A stretch of 11,304 bases of DNA from Bacteroidales bacterium UBA4318 (GTDB lineage: Bacteria; Bacteroidota; Bacteroidia; Bacteroidales; UBA932), in contig DGUE01000119.1 of assembly GCA_002393895.1 (NCBI GenBank), forward strand, positions 1 through 11,304, in the 5' to 3' direction. The notes below the pieces were generated by a model. That model saw only the letters and a program-made list of their open reading frames with translations, ran no database searches and had not been told where the DNA came from. Below are positions 695 through 11,304 of the stretch, piece by piece (position 1 is the stretch's first letter; each line of letters starts with the position of its first letter). A program made the translations under genes and the position numbers.

Positions 695-3070
695 TTATAA
701 AGATATGCTTTTTCGGTCAGTAAAACAATACCGGACAAACTCTCCCGGGCTTTCCAGATACAGATTCCCGTAGGAGGCGGCGCCCACGATTTTTGCGTGC
801 GAGCCAAGGGTATGGGCGGCGAGGTAGAGGAACAGATCCCGGAAATTGCATTCCGGATTCTCCGTCAGATAATCTGTCAGACTGAGGGAGAACCTGTCGC
901 ACATCCAGATGCGCGCCGAGGAGTTCCAGTGCTCAGCCCACGACATTTCGTTGGCGCTTGCCCCGGAAATGGCGAGGACTCCCCGGATTCCGTCAACATT
1001 GCGTATGACAGCCTCCCCGTAGCACGGTTCGGCGCATATCAGCAGCTTTCGGAATGTCATCTTTTCCGCTGTCTCCTTGAGGAGCCCGGCGCCGAAGCCT
1101 TCGCCCGGGGGTTTGTCTCTCCAGCAGAATTCATCGGCTCCGTCGGTGGGCTGGCTGTGTCCGTGGCCGCTCCAATAAAGAAGGACATTCGCTCCGGCGT
1201 CCTGCGGCAGCACTGTATGGAGCCGTCCGCTGCTCCTGCCCAGCAGGATGTCGGCTATATCGGCGGAGGAGAGGTCCTTGCTGTCGTAATCCATGACGGC
1301 GGCGGGAAGGGCGTCTGTGCCTCCAAGAAGGTCGGGTCCGTCTTCCGCGTTCCTGACAATCCCCGGTTCGGGATTCATCTCGTCCGAAGCCATGTCCTTG
1401 TCCAGAACGAGGATGATATGGTCGTCCGGGAAACCGCGGCTGCGGAGCATCTGATACACGCCGAGCACATCTGCCTGATGCCGATAGTTGCTGAAACCGT
1501 TGCTGCCCTGCACGAGGACAGCATACTGGCAGTCGAGTTCGGGATAGCTGAAAACCGCGCCGCCCGAAGCCTGGGAGTCGAAATCGGACCTTGCCTGCTG
1601 CTCGCTGTAGAGATATCGCCAGGCGGCGTTGGCATCGGCGGTACGGCCTCCGGATCCTCCGAAATAACCCCGGTGATGGATTTCACCGTCCAGAATCTGC
1701 CAGAGGACATAGGTGGTTGAAGTGGCCGCGGTGTAGGTCTGACTGTCGAAACTGATTTCTCCTGACGCACCGATGAAGTGAAGCAGCCGCCCCTGCTCGA
1801 GTGCATTCAGATACACTTCCATGGATGTGGCGTTCCAGGCAGCTCCGCCGAGTTCCTCTCCGTCGGCGTTCATGGTGATGTCGATGATGGCCTGGTTGAA
1901 AGCCTTGTTGTCGGCATCCACGCCCGAATGTTCCACATGGCATGCGGCGAAACCGACGACCATGAGCGCATCGTAAAACTTGCATTCGGCGAAGCCGGGT
2001 TTGGAACCGAAACGTACCTCGTAGCTGAGTTCGAAACCCGTGGAAGGGTCTGCGTAGGGCGAAAATCCTTCGTATCCCTGCAGGATATTCCATGAACGCG
2101 GCCCCATGGCATCCACATCTTCTTCATAAAAGCCAGGGATTGCAAAATATGTGTTGTACGCCGATTTGAACAGCTGCCAGTATTTGTCGTTGGCGGGGTC
2201 GTCGGGATCCGTGCTGTCGTGAAGCAGGCTCCAGAATTCATTGTTCATAACCGCTGCGCGGTTGGCGCGGGCCACCTCATACATCTGATCCGCCGTTTCC
2301 GCCACACAGAAAACAGCGGACTCCGCCACTCCCTGCCCGGTTGCAACCGCACGGTATTTGTCGAATATGGAAAGCAGTTCCTGCGTGTTGCCGTACTGCA
2401 GGTTCTGCTGGAGGATGATATCGTTCTGAAGTGAATAGAACGGAGCCCAGTAGTTGAATGTCATTCCGTATGCATCCACGGGAGAGAAAAATGCGGCCTT
2501 CGGACTGCGTATGATGGTGTCGTAGTACTTGCTGACAGAAGCATAACGGGTCATCATCAGGCCGGTGAAGGAGACGTCACTTTCCGTCAGGGCCCATAGG
2601 AATGGCTCCTTGTTTATATTCAGGCCGCTCGTCGTAACTGCATACCGGCGTATAATGTCTTCGCTGGTCGCCGTCGGCGCCATGAGAGGCTTGAGCGTTC
2701 GTTTGCAGGCAGGAGCGAAGTCGGCGATGTTCTCGTTTCCGAAAGGCCCCACGACTGCAATCACATCTTCCCTTCCGGCCAGTTCGCGGCTCAGCTTCAC
2801 AAGGTCTTCCGACAGTTCATCGTACCATTCAAGTTTGAGGTCGATTGCGACGGCGTTGTGTCGCTGCGCTTCCCGAAAGTTGTCCAGGAACCATTTCGCC
2901 GTGCGCTCAAGCCGCTTTTTGGAAGTTTTGTTGCCAATGGGCGCCACGACGGCCACCGTGCATTCTGTCCAGTGACGCTGGCTCTGATACACCGTCTCTT
3001 TATTCCCGCATGCCGTCAGGATCAGGCCCGCGGCGATGCACAGCAGGATACCAATCAGCCTTTTACTCAT
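695..3070 (-). CDS. Lipoprotein: type I periplasmic-binding domain fused to legumain/GPI8-like C13 peptidase
   Basis: 791 residues. The signal peptide ends in a lipobox (LTAC, Cys21), so this is an envelope lipoprotein. Residues about 37-500 look like a type I periplasmic-binding (receptor-ligand) domain; VIAVVGPFGNENIADFAPAC is the family's region after the first strand-helix repeats. Residues about 513-790 are a complete C13 peptidase domain close in pattern to legumain and GPI8: NYRHQAD (528-534), NPEPGIV, SGHGH (His636, His638), AEPC (Cys683) and a C-terminal SHAKI...YGNL. By alignment in mind, Cys683, a His of SGHGH and Asn528 correspond to the legumain catalytic residues, and Arg530, His531 and Asp725 to its S1 pocket for Asn or Asp. 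The likely activity is therefore asparaginyl endopeptidase or transamidase. Its start overlaps the upstream gene by 8 bases and has a strong AGGAGG site. The ligand and substrate are unknown. Confidence 0.85.
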   Translation of the reverse strand: MSKRLIGILLCIAAGLILTACGNKETVYQSQRHWTECTVAVVAPIGNKTSKKRLERTAKWFLDNFREAQRHNAVAIDLKLEWYDELSEDLVKLSRELAGREDVIAVVGPFGNENIADFAPACKRTLKPLMAPTATSEDIIRRYAVTTSGLNINKEPFLWALTESDVSFTGLMMTRYASVSKYYDTIIRSPKAAFFSPVDAYGMTFNYWAPFYSLQNDIILQQNLQYGNTQELLSIFDKYRAVATGQGVAESAVFCVAETADQMYEVARANRAAVMNNEFWSLLHDSTDPDDPANDKYWQLFKSAYNTYFAIPGFYEEDVDAMGPRSWNILQGYEGFSPYADPSTGFELSYEVRFGSKPGFAECKFYDALMVVGFAACHVEHSGVDADNKAFNQAIIDITMNADGEELGGAAWNATSMEVYLNALEQGRLLHFIGASGEISFDSQTYTAATSTTYVLWQILDGEIHHRGYFGGSGGRTADANAAWRYLYSEQQARSDFDSQASGGAVFSYPELDCQYAVLVQGSNGFSNYRHQADVLGVYQMLRSRGFPDDHIILVLDKDMASDEMNPEPGIVRNAEDGPDLLGGTDALPAAVMDYDSKDLSSADIADILLGRSSGRLHTVLPQDAGANVLLYWSGHGHSQPTDGADEFCWRDKPPGEGFGAGLLKETAEKMTFRKLLICAEPCYGEAVIRNVDGIRGVLAISGASANEMSWAEHWNSSARIWMCDRFSLSLTDYLTENPECNFRDLFLYLAAHTLGSHAKIVGAASYGNLYLESPGEFVRYCFTDRKSISL

Positions 3071-4127
3071 TCCCGGCCTCCTTTTTCATGGCGTCTGCGT
3101 GTATGGTTTGAAGCAGATCTTCCGGCAGATAACGTTCAATGATGGCTTTCTGCAAATCGGTGTAGGGATGCAGGACGACTTCCGTCCATCCGTCGGCAAA
3201 TGACAGGGTCTGGTGCTTTGGCATCCCCTCTGAAGACAGCCACTGGCCGATGCACAGGTCAATGGCCCTGTCGATATGTTTGACTACGGAAAACGGGCAG
3301 TGGTTAGAGATGCTGACAACGTCGATGCCTATATAATCAAATCCTCCGAACAGGCCGCTCATGCGGTAGAATGTGCCGGAAGCGCCCCCGCACACCGGAA
3401 ATACGAGCTGGGCGATCGGGAGGGTTTCGGAGTTGTAGACTATGCGCATCGCGTCTTCGTCGTCAATCCTGAATCCGCCCCCTTCTTCATAGGAAATCCA
3501 TTCCACCTGAAGCTCATGGTCATCCCCGGTCAGGACGTATTTTGCATTGAAGCCTTCTGTAAAACCTTCCACGGACTCCCTTATGGCCGACGCCAGGGGA
3601 TTCGCGGCAATCAGGAGCAAGTTGTCCGAGAACGCGGTTGCGACCGCTCCGGCCTCGTACATGGCGCTGTAATACGGCAGGCAGATGGTGGATCCTTTGC
3701 CAGGAAGCGGATCCTTCGTTTCAAGGTACAGCAGGTCAGCGCGCGGACATGCTCCCAGCTCATCGCTGTGCCGGCGGAGATAATCGTCGTATTCGCTCCC
3801 CGCCACTATGAGAAGTCTCCGCACCGTGTCCCGGAGCATTGACATCTGCTCGAAATAAGTCTGGAGGATTGCAAGGCCCTCCGCGCTTGTGGACGGTGAA
3901 AACTGCATTGTGCGCAGCCCGTTTGCGAGGGCGGTCCGCTCGACTCCGGCATAAATCAGATCGTTGTAGCTCCTGTCGCCCAAAGCGCCGGGATCGTACA
4001 CGACTGTCACCAGAGCTTTGCCGGAGGGGACGTCGGCGGGGTCCGGTTCATAATGTACCTTCCTGCACCCCATTGCCACCAGGGCAATTGCGGTCATCAG
4101 CAGATATTTTGCAGGCAGAGTATTCAT
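3063..4127 (-). CDS. BMP/PnrA-like substrate-binding lipoprotein
   Basis: 354 residues. The signal peptide ends in a lipobox (VAMGC, Cys21). After a short linker, ALVTVVYDPGALGDRSYND (38-56) is the hallmark first strand and loop of the basic membrane protein family (PF02608), whose members bind nucleosides or similar small ligands for ABC uptake or act as sensors. SAMYEAGAVAT (about 155-165) and the GGFDYIGID segment fit the second half of the fold. No ABC permease or ATPase gene lies in the window, so uptake is not demonstrated and a sensing or scavenging role is possible. The start is set by AGGAGA seven bases upstream. It is the first gene of a two-gene operon: its last 8 bases overlap the start of the C13 fusion gene. 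It is divergent from the muramidase lipoprotein gene. Confidence 0.8.
   Translation of the reverse strand: MNTLPAKYLLMTAIALVAMGCRKVHYEPDPADVPSGKALVTVVYDPGALGDRSYNDLIYAGVERTALANGLRTMQFSPSTSAEGLAILQTYFEQMSMLRDTVRRLLIVAGSEYDDYLRRHSDELGACPRADLLYLETKDPLPGKGSTICLPYYSAMYEAGAVATAFSDNLLLIAANPLASAIRESVEGFTEGFNAKYVLTGDDHELQVEWISYEEGGGFRIDDEDAMRIVYNSETLPIAQLVFPVCGGASGTFYRMSGLFGGFDYIGIDVVSISNHCPFSVVKHIDRAIDLCIGQWLSSEGMPKHQTLSFADGWTEVVLHPYTDLQKAIIERYLPEDLLQTIHADAMKKEAGNE
3077..3082 (-). promoter_or_regulatory. Strong Shine-Dalgarno for the C13 fusion gene
   Basis: The minus strand reads AGGAGG six bases before the ATG at 3070, inside the last codons of the BMP gene. It fixes the start and, together with the 8-base overlap, points to translational coupling. 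Such a strong site stands out because most other genes here have none. Confidence 0.75.
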
Positions 4128-4134
4128 TTTGCAT

Positions 4135-4140
4135 TCTCCT
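4135..4140 (-). promoter_or_regulatory. Shine-Dalgarno for the BMP lipoprotein gene
   Basis: The minus strand reads AGGAGA seven bases before the ATG at 4127, supporting that start. Confidence 0.7.
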
Positions 4141-4146
4141 GTTCTG

Positions 4147-4154
4147 CAAAATTA
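4147..4154 (-). promoter_or_regulatory. Bacteroidota -7 element for the BMP/C13 operon
   Basis: The minus strand reads TAATTTTG, a match to TAnnTTTG, 19 bases before the ATG at 4127 and just upstream of its Shine-Dalgarno site. No convincing -33 TTG lies at the usual 19-21 base distance, so this is supported by the -7 element only. Confidence 0.5.
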
Positions 4155-4166
4155 CCTTTTTTTTCG

Positions 4167-4174
4167 TAATTTCG
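4167..4174 (+). promoter_or_regulatory. Near-consensus -7 element for the muramidase gene
   Basis: TAATTTCG differs from TAnnTTTG at one position and lies 32 bases before the ATG at 4207. It is arranged back to back with the opposite-strand element at 4147-4154, with a T8 run between them. Confidence 0.35.
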
Positions 4175-4206
4175 CGGCCAAGAATGAAATGATGAGAATA
4201 AGAATT

Positions 4207-4944
4207 ATGAAAAGGTTTAGTTTTATGCTTGCAGCTTTCTGCTGCTTCCTTGGTTTGTCGACAGTGGTGTCATGCAGTAAAGACGACGGAGAAGAGACAA
4301 GTGAACTTCAGCGTGTGCTGTACAGCGAACTCGGCTTGCCGGATGACGGATCCAACAGCTCGAAGTATGGAATCAGCGACGAAGACATCGAGACCCGCGC
4401 AAAGGGAATGGGTGTCGAGGCTGCCGCGCTGAAGGCAGTCTGGAAGGTGGATACCGGCGGTCACGGTGGTTTCCTGGCCAATGGCGATCCTATGATTCTT
4501 TTCCAGGGACATATCTTCTGGCAGCAGCTCAGGACGAGGGGCCTTAATCCTCAGAATTACGTGAAAGGCAACGAGGATATTCTTCACCAGAGGCTGGACA
4601 AATCAAAGTTTGTCGGCGGAGTCGGTGAATGGGAACGTCTTGAGAGGGCCGTCGCGATTCATGAAGATGCCGCTCTCTCTTCTGCGAGCTGGGGCATGTT
4701 CCAGATAATGGGTTTCAATTACGGAAAGTGCGGCTGCAAGTCCGTGCAGGAGTTTGTTTCCAAGATGAAAGAAAGCGAGGTCGCTCAACTTGATTTGTTC
4801 GTGGCTTTCCTGAAATCGAATTCAAAGATGGTCGAGGCTCTCAAAAACCGCTCCTGGGTAGAGTTTGCCAGACTTTACTACGGCCCTACAGAGTACAATA
4901 TCTACGCTGAGAAGCTTTCCAAGGCATACGCAGCCCTCAAGTAG
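4207..4944 (+). CDS. Surface-type lipoprotein with N-acetylmuramidase (PF11860/DUF3380) domain
   Basis: 245 residues from the ATG at 4207; starts at 4189 or 4192 are also possible and would add 5-6 residues to the signal peptide. The lipobox is VVSC (Cys23), followed by SKDDGEE, a Lys-acidic stretch like the lipoprotein export signal that sends Bacteroidota lipoproteins to the cell surface. Residues about 60-245 match the N-acetylmuramidase domain known from phage endolysins such as Gp110: ALKAVWKVDTGG, PMILFQGHIFW, ASWGMFQIMGFN, then a Tyr-rich RLYYGP. The expected reaction is cleavage of the MurNAc-GlcNAc bond of peptidoglycan. Oddly, the usual Glu in KVE is Asp82 and the usual Glu in ILFE is Gln100, so activity may be altered. 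It is divergent from the BMP/C13 operon across 79 bases. Confidence 0.8.
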   Translation: MKRFSFMLAAFCCFLGLSTVVSCSKDDGEETSELQRVLYSELGLPDDGSNSSKYGISDEDIETRAKGMGVEAAALKAVWKVDTGGHGGFLANGDPMILFQGHIFWQQLRTRGLNPQNYVKGNEDILHQRLDKSKFVGGVGEWERLERAVAIHEDAALSSASWGMFQIMGFNYGKCGCKSVQEFVSKMKESEVAQLDLFVAFLKSNSKMVEALKNRSWVEFARLYYGPTEYNIYAEKLSKAYAALK

Positions 4945-4968
4945 GATATAGCAAATTGCATTTTTCAG

Positions 4969-4997
4969 ATGCGCTTCTTTCCGGAAAAGGAGCGCAT
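4969..4997. terminator. Hairpin terminator between convergent genes
   Basis: ATGCGCT (4969-4975) and AGCGCAT (4991-4997) form a perfect 7-base stem that can extend inward by further T-A and C-G pairs. It lies 25 bases after the muramidase stop, with an AT-rich tail (ATTATTT) on the + strand, and 7 bases beyond the stop of the GH5-like gene on the other strand. The T-run is poor in both directions, so termination strength is uncertain. Confidence 0.6.
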
Positions 4998-5003
4998 ATT
5001 ATT

Positions 5004-6104
5004 TCAGAACTGGCTATTCTGATACAAACGCGTCATTTCTTTTATAAACTTGATTTCCTCCTCGCTGTAGGGGGTGTGATCCGGGCGGAAAAGGTCGTGG
5101 AACCAGACATCGGGCTCTTCCTCAAAAGGAACGGGTTCACCATTTTCAATGTGGTTCCAAGGATACTGGCACTGCTGCTTGCCGTTCACGAGGCCATAGC
5201 TGAAGCAAGCTATCTTTTTCTCTTTGAACAGAGGGAGGATGGAGTAATAATCCGACCCCATACTGCGTGCCATCCATTCTGAACACAAAACCGGCCGGCC
5301 GAACTGCTCACAGTATTCCACGAACCTGCGGCATTCGGGCAGATCCTTATAGCAATGGAAAGAAATGATGTCACTTTCCGACAGAACGAACTGCGAGATC
5401 TCTTCATTATGCGACTTCCAGTCCGAAAGAGTTATGATAGGAGCTGTCAGAGGCTGCGAAGGGTTCACTTCCCTCGCCCAGCGAAAAACCTCCCTCATAA
5501 ACGGCAAAGTCTCGAATCCCTTGGTGTTTGCTGGCTCATTGTAAAGACACCAGGCAAGGATGCGGGGGTCCTTCCGATACTTCCTTATGACCTGCTTTAC
5601 GTAACGCTCCATTATCGGCCACTTCTCGGGGTTATTGACTATGTCTTTGCCGGGAGAAGACATCCATACCGAATTGTGAACACCGGGCACTGGCTGAGGC
5701 TGGGGGCCGGTATAGGGGTTCTTAATGGTTCCACCATTTGTGAAGAAAGTCATCAGTATCCGCAGCCCGTGCCTGTCGGCAATACTGATTGTCTTCTCCA
5801 GCCTTCCCATAAAGCCTTTGGGGTCTTCCTGCCAGACTAAATCGCACAGGAAGAGCCGGATGCAGTTGAAGCCAAGATCCTCTGCCAGGGCAAGCTCGCT
5901 GTCCACCACTTCGGGACGGAAGAATTCCTTTCCCCATATTTCCACGGGTGTTCCAGCATAGGACGGCATATAGACGCATCCTACGGGCCAGGGCTGGGCT
6001 GCATACCATTCATTGGCCTTTTCTGCACTCCATTTCCGGGGAGTATCAACACTGCAGCCGACCAGGGCCAGCAAGGCTGAAACAGCAATAATTATCCTTT
6101 TCAT
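5004..6104 (-). CDS. GH5-like (clan GH-A) glycoside hydrolase lipoprotein
   Basis: 366 residues from the ATG at 6104; a TTG four codons upstream is in frame but less likely. The signal peptide ends in LVGC (Cys17). The rest is one TIM-barrel catalytic domain of clan GH-A. LAWCLYNEP (183-191) ends strand 4 with the acid/base Glu190, SFHCY (248-252) holds the usual His and Tyr after strand 6, and PVLCSEW (271-277) ends strand 7 with the nucleophile Glu276. KWSAEKANEWYAAQPWPVGC near the N-terminus is typical of a Bacteroidota subgroup often labelled cellulase or 1,4-beta-xylanase; the true substrate, probably a beta-1,4-linked glucan, mannan or xylan, cannot be read from sequence. It has no Shine-Dalgarno site, and a -7 element lies 9 bases upstream. 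It is divergent from the GH3 gene. Confidence 0.8.
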   Translation of the reverse strand: MKRIIIAVSALLALVGCSVDTPRKWSAEKANEWYAAQPWPVGCVYMPSYAGTPVEIWGKEFFRPEVVDSELALAEDLGFNCIRLFLCDLVWQEDPKGFMGRLEKTISIADRHGLRILMTFFTNGGTIKNPYTGPQPQPVPGVHNSVWMSSPGKDIVNNPEKWPIMERYVKQVIRKYRKDPRILAWCLYNEPANTKGFETLPFMREVFRWAREVNPSQPLTAPIITLSDWKSHNEEISQFVLSESDIISFHCYKDLPECRRFVEYCEQFGRPVLCSEWMARSMGSDYYSILPLFKEKKIACFSYGLVNGKQQCQYPWNHIENGEPVPFEEEPDVWFHDLFRPDHTPYSEEEIKFIKEMTRLYQNSQF

Positions 6105-6113
6105 CACTGTGCA

Positions 6114-6121
6114 CAAATCTA
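6114..6121 (-). promoter_or_regulatory. Bacteroidota -7 element for the GH5-like gene
   Basis: The minus strand reads TAGATTTG, a full TAnnTTTG match, 9 bases before the ATG at 6104. Transcription would begin only a few bases before the start codon. No -33 TTG is visible at the usual distance. Confidence 0.45.
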
Positions 6122-6145
6122 ATCAAAAAGCGGAATATTATTTAT

Positions 6146-6153
6146 TATATTTG
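6146..6153 (+). promoter_or_regulatory. Bacteroidota -7 element for the GH3 gene
   Basis: TATATTTG, a full TAnnTTTG match, ends 15 bases before the ATG at 6169. No clear -33 element is present. Its last three bases are also a possible in-frame TTG start (6151), so the promoter and that start codon are mutually exclusive readings. Confidence 0.45.
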
Positions 6154-6168
6154 CAAAAAAAGAAACCG

Positions 6169-8568
6169 ATGACACTGAGTACTTTAGCCATCCTGGCCCT
6201 CCTTAGCACAACGCCATCCGCCAAAATCTACCATTCCAACTGGACCGATTTCAACAAAAACGGCAAGATGGACGTCTACGAGAACCCCAAGGCAGCCATA
6301 CAGGACCGCGTAGAGGATCTGCTCTCACGCATGACCCTCGAAGAAAAAACCTGCCAGCTCGTCACATTATATGGCGCAGGAAGGGTCCTGAAAGATGCGC
6401 TTCCTAACGAGTCCTGGAAGAATGAAGTCTGGAAAGACGGACTGGCGAACATTGACGAGCATCTCAACGGTGTCGGCAAATCTGCCGCCAGATACAGGGA
6501 TTACATCTATCCCTTCTCCAACCATGTAGATGCCCTGAATACCGTGCAGAAGTGGTTTATCGAGAACACCCGGCTTGGCATCCCCGTGGAGTTCTCCAAC
6601 GAAGGCATACATGGCCTCAATCACACCCTCGCCACTCCCCTTCCCGCCCCCATAGCCATAGGCTCCACCTGGGACCGCGAGCTGGTCCGTACCGCCGGCC
6701 GCATTGCGGGAGAAGAAGCGGCACTGCTTGGTTACCACAGCGTCTATGCGCCTATTCTGGACATCGCACGCGACCAACGCTGGGGCAGGACCCTGGAATG
6801 CTACGGTGAGGATCCCTTCGTGGTAGCAGAACTCGGCATACAGATGGCCGCAGGCATACAGGAGCAGGGCGTAGCTTCGTGCATGAAGCATTATGTGGCA
6901 TACGGCGTGCCCAAAGGCGGACGCGACGCAGACTGCCGCACAGATCCGCACATCACCCCAAGAGAACTTCACGAACTCTACCTTTATACCTTCCGCCGCG
7001 TCATCGAGGAGGCTCATCCTATGGAAGTTATGTCCAGCTACAACGACTGGAATGGCGAGCCTGTGAGCGCATCGCATTATTTTCTCACCGAGCTGTTGAG
7101 AGACACTTACGGTTTCGACGGATATGTTGTCAGCGACAGCGACGCCGTGGAATTCGTTCACACCAAACATAAGGTAGCCCCCACCTACGACGATGCGTGC
7201 CGCCAGGTGCTTGAGGCAGGCCTCAACGTGCGCACCAACTTCACCCAGCCCGCCATCTTCGTAGATGCAGTGCGCCGCCAGCTTGCAGACGGCAGCCTGT
7301 CGCAGGAAATCCTGGACCAGAGAGTTCGGGAAGTGCTCAGCGTCAAATTCCGTCTTGGCCTCTTCGACAATCCTTTCTCCGGGAACGGAAAGAAAGCGGA
7401 TGCGAAGGTCGGTCTGGAAAAGCACAAGGACTTCGTGATGCAGATGGGAAGGGAAAGCGTAGTTCTGCTCAAAAACGAGAATCACATACTCCCCCTGAAG
7501 AAGGATTCGTATTCCAGGATACTGGTTACCGGTCCGCTTGCCGACGAAGACAATTTCATGACCAGCCGCTACGGTCCGGATGGAGTTCCTACTGTCACCA
7601 TGCTCCAGGGTATAAGGAACTACCTGAAATCCAGCGGAATAACCGTAGACTACGAGAAAGGCTGCGATGTTAAGGATTCCCGCTGGCCCGTCAGCGAGAT
7701 TATCCCGGAACCTATGTCTGCTGATGAAGAAGAAGGCATACGCAGAACTGCAGAGAAAGCGGCCGCAGCCGACCTGGTGATAGCGGTTGTCGGCGAAGAC
7801 AAGTATGCCACCGGTGAAAGCCGGTCCAGGACTTCCCTGGAGCTCCCCGGACGTCAGCGCCAGTTGCTCGCCGAACTGTACAAGACAGGCAAACCCATAA
7901 TCCTGGTACTCATCAACGGCCAGCCTCTCACCATCAACTGGGAGGACAAGTACATGGATGCTATTCTTGAAATGTGGTTCCCTAGCGGCGAAGGAGGCGA
8001 CATCCTGGCTGAAACGCTTTTCGGTGACAACAATCCCAGCGGCAAACTGACCGTCACCTTCCCAAAGGCAGTGGGGCAGATTGAGACAAACTTCCCTTAC
8101 AAGAAGGGCTCCGAGGGCGGCCAGGGAAGGATAGGAGATCCGAACGGCTGGGGAGTCACCCGTGTCGTAGGCCCCCTCTACCCTTTCGGATACGGACTCA
8201 GCTATACGGATTTCAGCTACTCCAATCTGGAAATCAGCAAGAAAGATGACAGCCGGATAGATGTTTATTTCGACCTGGCGAATACCGGCGAGTACGAGGG
8301 CGCCGAGGTGGTGCAGCTCTACATCCGGGACAAATACAGTTCCGTGGTAACCTACGACTCCGTGCTGCGCGGTTTCGAAAGGGTTCCACTCAAGCCCGGA
8401 GAGAAAAAACGCCTTCACTTTACCCTTCAGGGCAAAGATCTCAGCATCCTGGATAAAGAGATGAAGTGGCGGACCGAAGCCGGCGAATTCGAAGTGCTTG
8501 TTGGCGCCAGTTCCACCGACATCCGCCTGGCGGGCTCATTCAATATAGATAAGGACAGGCTCTATTAA
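6169..8568 (+). CDS. Glycoside hydrolase family 3 beta-glycosidase (beta-glucosidase/xylosidase type), exported
   Basis: 799 residues from the ATG at 6169. The hydrophobic start ending in PSA (about residue 18) is a signal peptide; with a TTG start at 6151 it would gain the charged n-region MQKKKP, so that start is a real alternative. The N-terminal GH3 barrel covers about 45-400: RWGRTLECYGEDPF (204-217), CMKHY (238-242) and GYVVSDSDAV (318-327) with the nucleophile Asp323. The second GH3 domain covers about 425-640, including GESRSRT (549-555), whose Glu550 sits where the acid/base lies in BglX-type enzymes. A fibronectin-III-like domain follows from FGYGLSYTDF (673-682). It removes terminal beta-linked sugars from oligosaccharides, probably in the periplasm; glucose versus xylose cannot be decided. 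It ends 3 bases from the convergent lyase gene. Confidence 0.9.
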   Translation: MTLSTLAILALLSTTPSAKIYHSNWTDFNKNGKMDVYENPKAAIQDRVEDLLSRMTLEEKTCQLVTLYGAGRVLKDALPNESWKNEVWKDGLANIDEHLNGVGKSAARYRDYIYPFSNHVDALNTVQKWFIENTRLGIPVEFSNEGIHGLNHTLATPLPAPIAIGSTWDRELVRTAGRIAGEEAALLGYHSVYAPILDIARDQRWGRTLECYGEDPFVVAELGIQMAAGIQEQGVASCMKHYVAYGVPKGGRDADCRTDPHITPRELHELYLYTFRRVIEEAHPMEVMSSYNDWNGEPVSASHYFLTELLRDTYGFDGYVVSDSDAVEFVHTKHKVAPTYDDACRQVLEAGLNVRTNFTQPAIFVDAVRRQLADGSLSQEILDQRVREVLSVKFRLGLFDNPFSGNGKKADAKVGLEKHKDFVMQMGRESVVLLKNENHILPLKKDSYSRILVTGPLADEDNFMTSRYGPDGVPTVTMLQGIRNYLKSSGITVDYEKGCDVKDSRWPVSEIIPEPMSADEEEGIRRTAEKAAAADLVIAVVGEDKYATGESRSRTSLELPGRQRQLLAELYKTGKPIILVLINGQPLTINWEDKYMDAILEMWFPSGEGGDILAETLFGDNNPSGKLTVTFPKAVGQIETNFPYKKGSEGGQGRIGDPNGWGVTRVVGPLYPFGYGLSYTDFSYSNLEISKKDDSRIDVYFDLANTGEYEGAEVVQLYIRDKYSSVVTYDSVLRGFERVPLKPGEKKRLHFTLQGKDLSILDKEMKWRTEAGEFEVLVGASSTDIRLAGSFNIDKDRLY

Positions 8569-8571
8569 GCT

Positions 8572-9714
8572 CTAAAGCCATATCAGAGGATTCCTAACAG
8601 GAAGATTACGGAGCACTTCCGCGTTTGTCGGGAAGTGCTCGTAGTTTTTCCATGCACGGTAATATGACTCTTCGCCGAAACGCAGCCATGCGAACAGGAA
8701 AGCAGGTTGTGCCACAGGCCATTCATCCCAGTACATGACATCTTCTCCATACGGCCACTTGGTTTTATCCTGGACATATGGGAGCATGAACTCTACTGCT
8801 TTATGCATGTCATCCCATAAGTCTTCTCCATCTTGCGACAGGATATGGCAGAGGACTGCCATCGCATCCAGGTTGAAGAGCGAATAGCCGTATGGCTTGG
8901 TGCGGGCCAGTTCCTGCGGGAAACTTCCGTCCTCCGCCATCTGAGTGGGAAGGAAAACATCCTTGAAGCGCTGCCGGCAAAGCCCGGTAATCTCCTTGTT
9001 TCCCGTAAAACGGGCAAAGGCGGCCGCCTGAAGGGCCCAGCAGGTGCCATGATTGTTCCTGGCGTTCATCTCGTCTATGCCATACTGGTGGGTAGTCAGC
9101 CAGTGGAGATACTCCGAGAACCAGGTCTGCGCTCCTTCGATGCACTCCGAACTTATCGCCCCGGCATCCCTGAGGCGGATCAGCGCCTGCGCCACTTCTA
9201 TCAGATGAATAGTATCGATTATGCCTATGCCCCGCCCGGTTGCACGCCCTTTTATTGCCTGGGCGTACTGGAGGCTTGGGTTCATTTTTGTGTCTTCGTC
9301 GATAAACCACGCACGTACATGTTTCTCCACGGCAGCGGCATATCTGGCATCTCCCGTAAGCAGATAAGCGGACGTGAGTGAGCCCACGGCCATGCTGAAA
9401 TCTATCATCGCCTTCCTGTGTGCGGAGAAATTGTCCGGATTGCTTTCGCCGTCGCGCCTGATGTAAGGCCCGTCGGGATTCTCGGGATCCGGCCACCAGT
9501 AATCCCCTTCTGAATAGAAATCATGTATGCCTCCGGCGCTGCGCTCGGCAACGAAAGCGGTAACAGTCACAGGCTCGGCATCAAGCCAACTGTCAGCCCC
9601 GGACATTATTCCCTTTTCAAGCAGGGATGACACCTTTTGACTTGGCGAAACACTGCAAGAAGACGCAAACGCAAGGACGCTAAAGAGCAGGGAGATGGAT
9701 GTGGCTTTAATCAT
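8572..9714 (-). CDS. Alginate lyase superfamily (PF05426-like) lipoprotein, possible PL38-type uronan lyase
   Basis: 380 residues. The signal peptide ends in ASSC (Cys20). The mature protein is one alpha/alpha-barrel lyase domain. DYWWPDPENPDGPYIRRDG (71-89) is a hallmark of the Bacteroidota members, MNARNNHGTCW contains Asn221-His222 where the catalytic Asn/His pair of alginate lyases falls, and KPYGYSLFN carries Tyr275 and Tyr277, one of which is the likely catalytic Tyr. These enzymes cleave uronic-acid polysaccharides by beta-elimination. The Bacteroidota group includes PL38 enzymes acting on glucuronan or alginate, but PL5-like or other specificities are not excluded. The -7 element ends only 5 bases before the ATG and there is no Shine-Dalgarno site. 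Its last codons hold the apparent terminator of the convergent GH3 gene. Confidence 0.75.
   Translation of the reverse strand: MIKATSISLLFSVLAFASSCSVSPSQKVSSLLEKGIMSGADSWLDAEPVTVTAFVAERSAGGIHDFYSEGDYWWPDPENPDGPYIRRDGESNPDNFSAHRKAMIDFSMAVGSLTSAYLLTGDARYAAAVEKHVRAWFIDEDTKMNPSLQYAQAIKGRATGRGIGIIDTIHLIEVAQALIRLRDAGAISSECIEGAQTWFSEYLHWLTTHQYGIDEMNARNNHGTCWALQAAAFARFTGNKEITGLCRQRFKDVFLPTQMAEDGSFPQELARTKPYGYSLFNLDAMAVLCHILSQDGEDLWDDMHKAVEFMLPYVQDKTKWPYGEDVMYWDEWPVAQPAFLFAWLRFGEESYYRAWKNYEHFPTNAEVLRNLPVRNPLIWL
8607..8649 (+). terminator. GH3 terminator embedded in the lyase coding sequence
   Basis: GAGCACTTCC (8611-8620) and GGAAGTGCTC (8631-8640) form a perfect 10-base stem with a 10-base loop. TAC (8607-8609) and GTA (8641-8643) extend it past a bulged G, and TTTTT follows at 8645-8649. 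This is a classic rho-independent terminator for the + strand, 38 bases after the GH3 stop. On the minus strand the same bases encode EHFPTNAEVL of the lyase. Confidence 0.75.
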
Positions 9715-9799: not shown

Positions 9800-9874
9800 G
9801 GGACCTTAGCTCAGTCGGTTTAGAGCGCTTGCTTCACACGCAAGAGGTCAGCAGTTCGAATCTGCTAGGTCCCA
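9800..9874 (+). tRNA. tRNA-Val (anticodon CAC)
   Basis: A full cloverleaf can be drawn by hand. The acceptor is GGGACCT (9800-9806) with AGGTCCC (9867-9873). The D stem is GCTC/GAGC, the anticodon stem CTTGC/GCAAG around loop TTCACAC, and the T stem AGCAG/CTGCT around TTCGAAT. The anticodon at 9835-9837 is CAC, reading the valine codon GUG. The discriminator base is A9874, as expected for valine. CCA is not encoded. The next gene starts 20 bases later with no promoter or terminator in between. Confidence 0.95.
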
Positions 9875-9894
9875 CATTGTTGACCATATGCAAT

Positions 9895-11304
9895 ATGGAA
9901 AAACAAAAGTACGTAGTTTCTGAAGCCGACCTGCAGAACGCTCTGGGGCTCAAAGGAGCATTCGGGCGCTTTGTAACCCGCCGTATTCACCGCCTCCTCG
10001 AAATACATAAAGTCAATGCAATGCACGAGAAACTCATGGAGCATGATGGTCCGGAGTTTTCCGAAGCTGTGCTTAAAGAGGTTGGCGTCACCTACGAGAT
10101 TCTCCCCGAACAACTTGCCCGCATCCCCGAAGAGGGAGGCTTCATCACCGTATCCAACCACCATTTCGGCAGCATAGACGGTCTCATCCTCAGTTCGGTA
10201 ATAGGCGGAAAGAGAAAGGATTACCGCATTCTCACCACCTTTGTGCTCGCACTGATTCCCAGCCTCAAGAGCAGTTTCATGCCGGTTGACAACCTGAGCG
10301 GAAGCAAGGCAAGCGTAAAAAGTGTCCACGGCATCAGGATGGCTCTGGAGCACATCCACGAAGGTGGTGCTCTCGGATTCTTCCCCGCAGGCGAGGTCGG
10401 CACCTACCAGAAAGGCGCAAAGCGCACCGCTGTAGGCAACAAGAAAGTCATCGAAGACAAGCCCTGGGCCGATAACATCATCAAGTTGATCAAGAATTCC
10501 GGATTCCCGGTTATTCCGATATACTTCGAAGGCACCAACTCCCGGTTCTTCCATTTCCTCGGCAAGATTCATCCCCGCCTCCGCACCGTGCGCCTTATCC
10601 ATGAGATGCTTAACAAGAAAGGCACTCACGTAAAGGTACGCATCGGCCAGGCCATCAGCCCAGAGGAGATGAGCAAGTACACGGTGCCGGAGCTTGGCAG
10701 ATATCTGCGCAACCGCACTTATGCCCTCCAGGCAGAGTGCCTGCCAAAGAAAGAGCTGGCCGCACAGAACATCACGGAGCCCCTTGCAGAGCCTGTCGAT
10801 CCCGAAATTGTGCGCTCCGAAGTAGCCGCGATTGCAGACCGTGCCATCTTCGAAGTAGGAGACTACCGTTGCTACCTCACCACCGTAGACGGCATTCCCA
10901 ATACCATGCGCGAGCTTGCCCGCCTCCGCGAAGAGACCTTCCGGGCAGTTGGAGAAGGCACCGGCAAGGCTATCGATACCGACCGTTTCGATTCCTTCTT
11001 CCATCATCTTATCCTCTGGAACATTCCCAACGGCGAGATAGTCGGTTCATACCGCATTGGAGCAGGCACCGAAACTGTTGTCAATCACGGCGGGATCAAT
11101 GGTCTTTACACCTCTACCCTGTTCAATTATGCCCAGGGCAACGAGCAGCTGCTTTCTACCTGCCTCGAACTTGGGCGTACATTCATACAGCAGAAGTATC
11201 AGCGTGAGGTCCTGGGCCTCAAATTCCTTCTCACAGGGCTTGCCGCCTCCACCGTGCAGTTCCCCGAAGCCAGATACTTCCTGGGCCCGGTCAGCATCAG
11301 CAAC
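9895..11304 (+). CDS. Bifunctional acyltransferase, OlsF/GlsF-like (PlsC domain + OlsB-like GNAT domain), 3' end outside window
   Basis: Open from the ATG at 9895 to the window edge: 470 residues, no stop. Residues about 30-290 are a PlsC-type O-acyltransferase: NHHFGSIDG has the HX4D motif (His90, Asp95) and FFPAGEVG (162-169) takes the place of the usual EGT block. Residues about 335 onward resemble OlsB-like N-acyltransferases (autoinducer-synthase/GNAT fold): RELARLREETFR, GEGTGK, DTDRFDSFFHHL and EIVGSYRIG. The fused order matches OlsF/GlsF proteins, in which the C-terminal part N-acylates an amino acid with a 3-hydroxy fatty acid and the N-terminal part adds the second acyl chain, giving glycine or ornithine lipids at the inner membrane. 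Relatives are about 600 residues, so roughly a quarter is missing. No Shine-Dalgarno site is visible; it probably shares the tRNA-Val promoter. Confidence 0.85.
   Translation, partial: MEKQKYVVSEADLQNALGLKGAFGRFVTRRIHRLLEIHKVNAMHEKLMEHDGPEFSEAVLKEVGVTYEILPEQLARIPEEGGFITVSNHHFGSIDGLILSSVIGGKRKDYRILTTFVLALIPSLKSSFMPVDNLSGSKASVKSVHGIRMALEHIHEGGALGFFPAGEVGTYQKGAKRTAVGNKKVIEDKPWADNIIKLIKNSGFPVIPIYFEGTNSRFFHFLGKIHPRLRTVRLIHEMLNKKGTHVKVRIGQAISPEEMSKYTVPELGRYLRNRTYALQAECLPKKELAAQNITEPLAEPVDPEIVRSEVAAIADRAIFEVGDYRCYLTTVDGIPNTMRELARLREETFRAVGEGTGKAIDTDRFDSFFHHLILWNIPNGEIVGSYRIGAGTETVVNHGGINGLYTSTLFNYAQGNEQLLSTCLELGRTFIQQKYQREVLGLKFLLTGLAASTVQFPEARYFLGPVSISN

Follow-up and report, generated by a model that had tools for sequence, protein, structure and literature searches.

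A LivK-type binding domain joined to a legumain-type peptidase on one Bacteroidales lipoprotein, and its possible role in processing surface effectors

The stretch of DNA analysed here, which we call the window, comprises positions 1 to 11,304 of contig DGUE01000119.1 from a rumen-type Bacteroidales bacterium. On its minus strand it encodes a 791-amino-acid lipoprotein that combines a LivK-type binding domain with a legumain-type cysteine peptidase of family C13 (the periplasmic-binding protein-C13, or PBP-C13, fusion). The start of this gene is overlapped by 8 bp by the end of the gene just upstream, which encodes a Bmp/PnrA-like lipoprotein. Residue counts in the list below refer to an alignment of 278 rows, composed of 38 genes from the fusion loci (numbered L001 onwards) and 240 database proteins, many of them near-identical.

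695..3070, minus strand: gene of the PBP-C13 fusion lipoprotein, 791 amino acids (open reading frame (ORF), Pfam C13 match, full-length relatives, structure model)
3008..3070, minus strand: lipoprotein signal peptide up to lipobox Cys21 (TA/CGNKETV), read from the sequence; Cys21 is invariant in alignments A1, A3 and A7
1631..2968, minus strand: type I periplasmic-binding (LivJ/LivK) domain, residues ~35-480 (fold and profile)
716..1537, minus strand: C13 peptidase domain, residues 512-785
1487..1489, minus strand: Asn528, equivalent of legumain Asn42 (N 269, D 7, Y 1, gap 1 of 278)
1481..1483, minus strand: Arg530, equivalent of legumain Arg44 (R 277/278, gap 1)
1163..1165, minus strand: catalytic His636, legumain His148 (H 276/278, N 1, gap 1)
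1022..1024, minus strand: catalytic Cys683, legumain Cys189 (C 275/278, S 1, gaps 2)
896..898, minus strand: Asp725, equivalent of legumain Asp231 (D 136, N 139, T 1, S 1, gap 1 of 278)
3063..4127, minus strand: Bmp/PnrA-like lipoprotein, the partner gene (ORF, PF02608, profile)

A sequence-only reading of the window had described a C13 peptidase and a binding-protein domain on one lipoprotein, and this architecture is borne out by both sequence and predicted fold. In a Pfam scan the C13 domain matched PF01650 at 116.2 bits, against a cut-off of 22.8. In the structure model of the protein (predicted local distance difference test, pLDDT, 81.9; predicted template modelling score, pTM, 0.70) it was found to have a legumain-type fold on comparison with known folds. 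The N-terminal domain, of an amino-acid-sensor type, resembles LivJ/LivK in fold and in profile and has the type I binding-protein fold; its TATSE segment, like an E-G segment, is close to what we take to be the ligand-contact regions of LivJ. The idea of a ligand-controlled envelope protease, put forward in the sequence-only reading, is still plausible.

Fold comparison of the C13 domain left PIGK and legumain tied, and sequence comparison placed it closer to legumain (76 bits) than to PIGK/GPI8 (63 bits). The earlier reading had also raised a GPI-transamidase-like function. In this form, a GPI8-like transamidase or asparaginyl ligase would join surface proteins to an acceptor. The idea gains no added support and we consider it very improbable: the fold matches are tied, the sequence leans to legumain, and the neighbouring proteins have lipoboxes of their own. 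The fusion also differs from PIGK/GPI8 in carrying a binding domain. No transamidase subunits were recognised among the scanned neighbours (no whole-genome search was made), and neither a sorting signal nor a transamidase partner was noticed, no dedicated search having been made. Proteins of the legumain subfamily carry a C-terminal activation peptide and prodomain. The fusion differs from legumain (MEROPS C13) in being a lipoprotein with an N-terminal LivK-type domain, and its chain stops 6 residues past the matched catalytic domain and has no legumain-type prodomain. Compared with L001, L002 and L003, the window has ~279 bp of extra DNA (447-725) where the fusion gene ends, which alters the last residues of the protein after EFVRY; L008 differs again at this position.

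The catalytic set is retained as the sequence-only reading had it, with His636 and Cys683 aligning with legumain His148 and Cys189. At the legumain Glu187 position the alignment has E in 272 rows, D in 4 and gaps in 2. Arg44, Glu187 and Asp231 are residues that presumably line the Asn (S1) pocket of legumain, and they are kept in the window protein as Arg530, Glu681 and Asp725. Judged from these residues the peptidase is apparently intact, and Asn/Asp specificity would be expected of the C13 domain. Human legumain has a Cys189-His148-Asn42 catalytic triad with Glu190 as an activity brake, as described in the parts of PMC9604545 used here; the fusion family differs from it in having Tyr or Phe at the Glu190 position in 275 of the 278 rows.

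The Bmp/PnrA-like partner resembles PnrA/TmpC in profile. Four of nine members of its family matched PF02608 at E <= 0.1 (best 8e-9), the window member doing so at 0.052 with 13 bits, below the cut-off of 24.1; the family profile matched TmpC/PnrA 2fqw at 1.2e-7. The gene pair is a nearly constant feature of these loci. The counts rest on 38 fusion genes as called, with L016 and L060 excluded as partial or broken; they become 37 for the partner as L059 starts at a contig edge. A partner was found directly upstream in 35 of the 37, in 25 cases as called ORFs and in 10 through tblastn. Among the 25 called ORFs, 22 share 4-26 bp with the fusion gene; in L006 and L057 the partner is split into two ORFs. 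Upstream of the window pair we noted a possible promoter, for which a sigma-70 promoter scan of 3900-4400 gave no match:

4147..4154, minus strand: candidate -7 promoter element TAATTTTG for the Bmp-C13 pair, read from the sequence; the underlying consensus we take to be TAnnTTTG

The two loci without a partner are L007, whose called fusion gene lacks the N-terminus, and L051 (8344-10557). The latter is a second fusion copy in genome G256, in which the catalytic His is replaced by Asn and the catalytic Cys by Ser, and it is the sole full-length copy without the catalytic His and Cys. Since this dead copy is also without a partner, the partner and catalysis may go together, as this one case suggests. 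The gene before L051 codes for a TonB-dependent receptor (PF00593, 3.1e-25), a position that would suit a repurposed receptor. This copy speaks for a signalling receptor, in which ligand binding would lead the C13 domain to cleave a regulatory surface or envelope protein and no weapon would be involved. Leaving L051 aside, the operon neighbours scanned or read (part of the neighbours being scanned) included no recognised regulator, and the repeated linkage to MACPF proteins points to effectors instead; we regard the signalling explanation as improbable.

This MACPF linkage was observed in relatives of the window. Co-directional MACPF proteins over the Pfam cut-off adjoin the pair in six of the 38 loci (L014, L048, L050, L063, L064 and L065); L048_10, L048_11 and L064_0, being incomplete or odd pieces, did not count as loci of their own. 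In L050, three MACPF genes lead straight into Bmp and then the fusion gene. A lipobox is present in most of these MACPF neighbours, and BACON or BACON_2 was matched at E <= 0.1 in nine of the 11 that were scanned, only two being over the cut-off; in this they are like the BACON subgroup of the BSAP MACPF toxins, which, in the portions of PMC12853789 consulted, are lipoproteins with a lipoprotein export signal (LES), a small part of them with BACON. In a tree of 30 rows (38 minus five near-copies and three fragments) the linkage lies on two lineages and needs two changes.

The carrier set comprised 24 of the 30 genomes with any A1 match, weak or partial ones (G406, G470, G474, G551, G566 and G625) being dropped. 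There were 13 MACPF matches in five of the 24 genomes. Eleven lie on the contig of the fusion gene, within ~6.5 kb of it. The remaining two come from a G507 contig that shares its opening 388 bp, at 97.7%, with the end of the carrier contig, so that all 13 probably belong to fusion operons. About 0.8% of the five MACPF-carrier genomes, from rounded genome sizes, is within 8 kb of a fusion gene. MACPF is rare in the carrier families, occurring in 5/56 and 2/18 genomes. Two further candidates were dropped: our own MACPF profile matched a protein in L059, where Pfam shows BACON-type domains only, and an 83-aa piece in L060, by eye the same as the BACON-type protein of L059.

The position after the fusion gene behaves as a slot with varying content. 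It holds a MACPF protein in L014, a protein family we call c5 in the relatives L015, L011 and L017 (with one doubtful ORF between the fusion gene and c5 in L017), and another lipoprotein, of 787 aa and with no Pfam match, in L013. Family c5 consists of BACON and an unknown core, is ~785 aa long and was found in 7/38 loci; a third lipoprotein family, c4, follows it every time. When our own small gene set was searched with the c4 profile, a protein beside the MACPF in L063 matched at 5.5e-5. The slot is in this way reminiscent of exchangeable effector cassettes. In the database protein P0336, the c5 leader (86% identity over 5%) is attached to a different body of 617 aa with no Pfam match, and judged from this sequence leader and body appear exchangeable.

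In the c5 model (pLDDT 74.6), long strands at 327-348 and 457-471 flank a low-confidence Gly-rich hydrophobic stretch; that this might be a pore-inserting hairpin is only a guess from the model. The idea of c5 as a hidden MACPF was set aside, as profiles aligned leader and BACON only and no convincing PDB match was found, though a match is not thereby excluded. Genuine c5-C13 fusions were likewise rejected: the database proteins P0320 and P0323 join the neighbouring genes at differing points inside their coding parts, and they are probably deletions or assembly chimeras. Separately, L011 has at 810-6698, co-directional and upstream of Bmp, two BspA-type leucine-rich repeat proteins (PF13306, 1.1e-65 and 2.4e-62) and a peptidyl-arginine-deiminase-type protein (PF04371, 1.3e-30).

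The slot in the window has no recognisable effector. Its clade does have a constant neighbour, which in the window lies beside Bmp:

4189..4944, plus strand: N-acetylmuramidase lipoprotein, divergent neighbour (PF11860, E 1.9e-57)

The muramidase adjoins the fusion locus in all nine loci of this clade (the window and L001-L008). Clustering showed it in eight of them, and tblastn located it in L005 at 67% identity. In L004 and L006 it runs in the same direction as the pair; elsewhere in the clade it is divergent. The window protein's sequence from the lipobox Cys, CSKDDGEE, is a strong surface-export-like stretch, and this peptidoglycan hydrolase may sit on the cell surface. As a candidate, it may be the effector of the window's clade.

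The remainder of the window contains carbohydrate-enzyme genes at 5004-9714 (a GH5-like lipoprotein, GH3 and an alginate-lyase-family protein), a tRNA-Val (cac) at 9800-9875 and, after it at 9829-11304, an acyltransferase and GNAT protein cut off at the window end, which we take to be like bifunctional ornithine-lipid synthases. The many carbohydrate enzymes would suit a nutrient-scavenging module, in which amino acids, peptides or nucleosides would be bound by the two proteins and the C13 domain would shorten peptides so that they can be taken up, and both binding folds come from solute-binding families. Even so, no ABC permease or peptide transporter was recognised in the window, a site-specific C13 protease would be a poor general scavenger, and the MACPF linkage is left unexplained, which makes this function unlikely in our view. 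Unlike LivJ/LivK and PnrA/TmpC, the pair has no transporter recognised beside it in the window, and one of its binding proteins is fused to a protease.

The distribution of the fusion is patchy. When one genome per GTDB species was scanned for the pattern, 17 loci were found, mostly in metagenome-assembled genomes (MAGs) labelled Bacteroidales, Bacteroidia or Prevotella, several from ruminants. PF01650 matched at E <= 0.001 in 43 of 295 sampled genomes of the order; above 100 bits there were only seven matches, in six genomes (the next being 55.7), and all seven are full-length fusions. By family, carriers are scattered, with A1 matches at E <= 0.001, weak or partial ones included, in 10/199, 1/13, 4/18, 9/56 and 6/173 genomes. 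A draw from the phylum gave a match in 103/395 genomes, with the whole profile covered only in G001; the other matches reach at most 39.8 bits and do not extend beyond position 443 of the 737 in the profile, staying in the half that covers the binding domain. Among control genomes, PF01650 matched in Caulobacter and MACPF in one Bacteroides. Database entries with names including 'C13 family peptidase' come from Parabacteroides, P. goldsteinii, Bacteroides sp. and Phocaeicola faecalis. A 98% identical copy of L002 in a MAG labelled Oscillospiraceae is probably a binning error. In L070 (9548-11032, G522) the fusion gene is broken into two frames; in L067 (G526), where the flanking gene clusters are the same, it is a single frame. 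An origin from a phage, a plasmid or a listed defence system was rejected: the window protein had no tblastn match in phage or plasmid collections, the two window proteins of the pair had no PHROGs family, and these two and two MACPF relatives had no PADLOC family.

The close precedent for effector processing, by analogy, is the activation of CDCL and Fab1 toxins by C11 proteases. According to PMC11169675 and PMC8406203, the BfCDCL pore-formers depend on DpnB, a C11 surface protease identified on the sensitive species, and the bacteriocin Fab1 depends on the C11 protease fragipain. The fusion is like fragipain and DpnB, which activate antibacterial toxins, in being a Bacteroidales lipoprotein protease; unlike its C13 domain, these belong to family C11 and cut after Arg/Lys (PMC12853789). 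The term 'C13' is absent from the main text of the CDCL, BSAP (PMC12853789) and Fab1 papers. Searches of open-licence full texts, judged by titles and the starts of abstracts (subscription papers and preprints being outside this scope), gave no description of a C13 protease in Bacteroidota or of its MACPF linkage. The domains and the type of toxin activation are known, and no description of the combination was found in the open-licence literature, in agreement with the earlier reading, which knew of no characterised bacterial system with this architecture. In most accounts legumain and GPI8 appear as enzymes of eukaryotes. We know of no fused binding domain in fragipain or DpnB.

A sensor-type partner and perforin-like neighbours in several lineages suggest a dedicated processing protease for surface weapons. 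We propose, at about even odds (a probability of roughly 0.5), that the fusion and the Bmp/PnrA-like lipoprotein form a ligand-gated sensing and processing module that activates co-encoded surface lipoprotein effectors. The lipoproteins would face outward from the cell: many relatives carry acidic stretches after the lipobox (CREDD, CHKDDD, CRQEDD) like the surface-export signal C-X-K-(D/E)2-X given in the part of PMC5080379 consulted. An amino-acid-like or nucleoside-like ligand at the binding domain or domains would gate the protease, which would then cut the co-encoded effectors after Asn/Asp. Depending on the lineage, its substrates would be MACPF pore-formers or other BACON lipoproteins, and in the window perhaps the adjacent muramidase lipoprotein.

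Several observations weigh against this proposal. No MACPF was found in 32/38 loci within the available stretch, several of which were ended by contig edges; the window itself has none, nor does the nearest of the genomes compared, G001, which is only 77% complete. Three of the nine MACPF matches in the family of 56 genomes are in genomes without the fusion, so MACPF also occurs independently of it. L066, L067 and L070 have only a small protein of unknown fold ahead of the pair, L068 and L069 have two unknown lipoproteins after it, and no immunity gene was identified. The c5 core gave no convincing PDB fold match outside its BACON-like domain, and in a profile comparison c5 and the MACPF set have only leader and BACON in common (118 columns). 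The window sequence CGNKET fits the export signal only in part. Finally, Asn replaces legumain Asp231 in half of the 278 rows, and the P1 preference may differ as a result.

A more specific form of the proposal is ligand-gated weapon activation, which we put forward tentatively and hold to be rather unlikely. Here, the two surface sensors would detect small molecules, for example from lysed neighbours, and trigger the Asn/Asp cleavage that arms the exchangeable effectors of the operon, a bacterial counterpart of protease-triggered complement/perforin chemistry. Among Bacteroidales of gut and rumen, the legumain-type protease with its sensor-type domain has a scattered occurrence and a recurrent linkage to perforin-like proteins. 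If it arms them, it would represent a second, Asn/Asp-specific and sensor-controlled activation route beside the C11 route of gut-bacterial pore-formers, and how such weapons are switched on would become testable.
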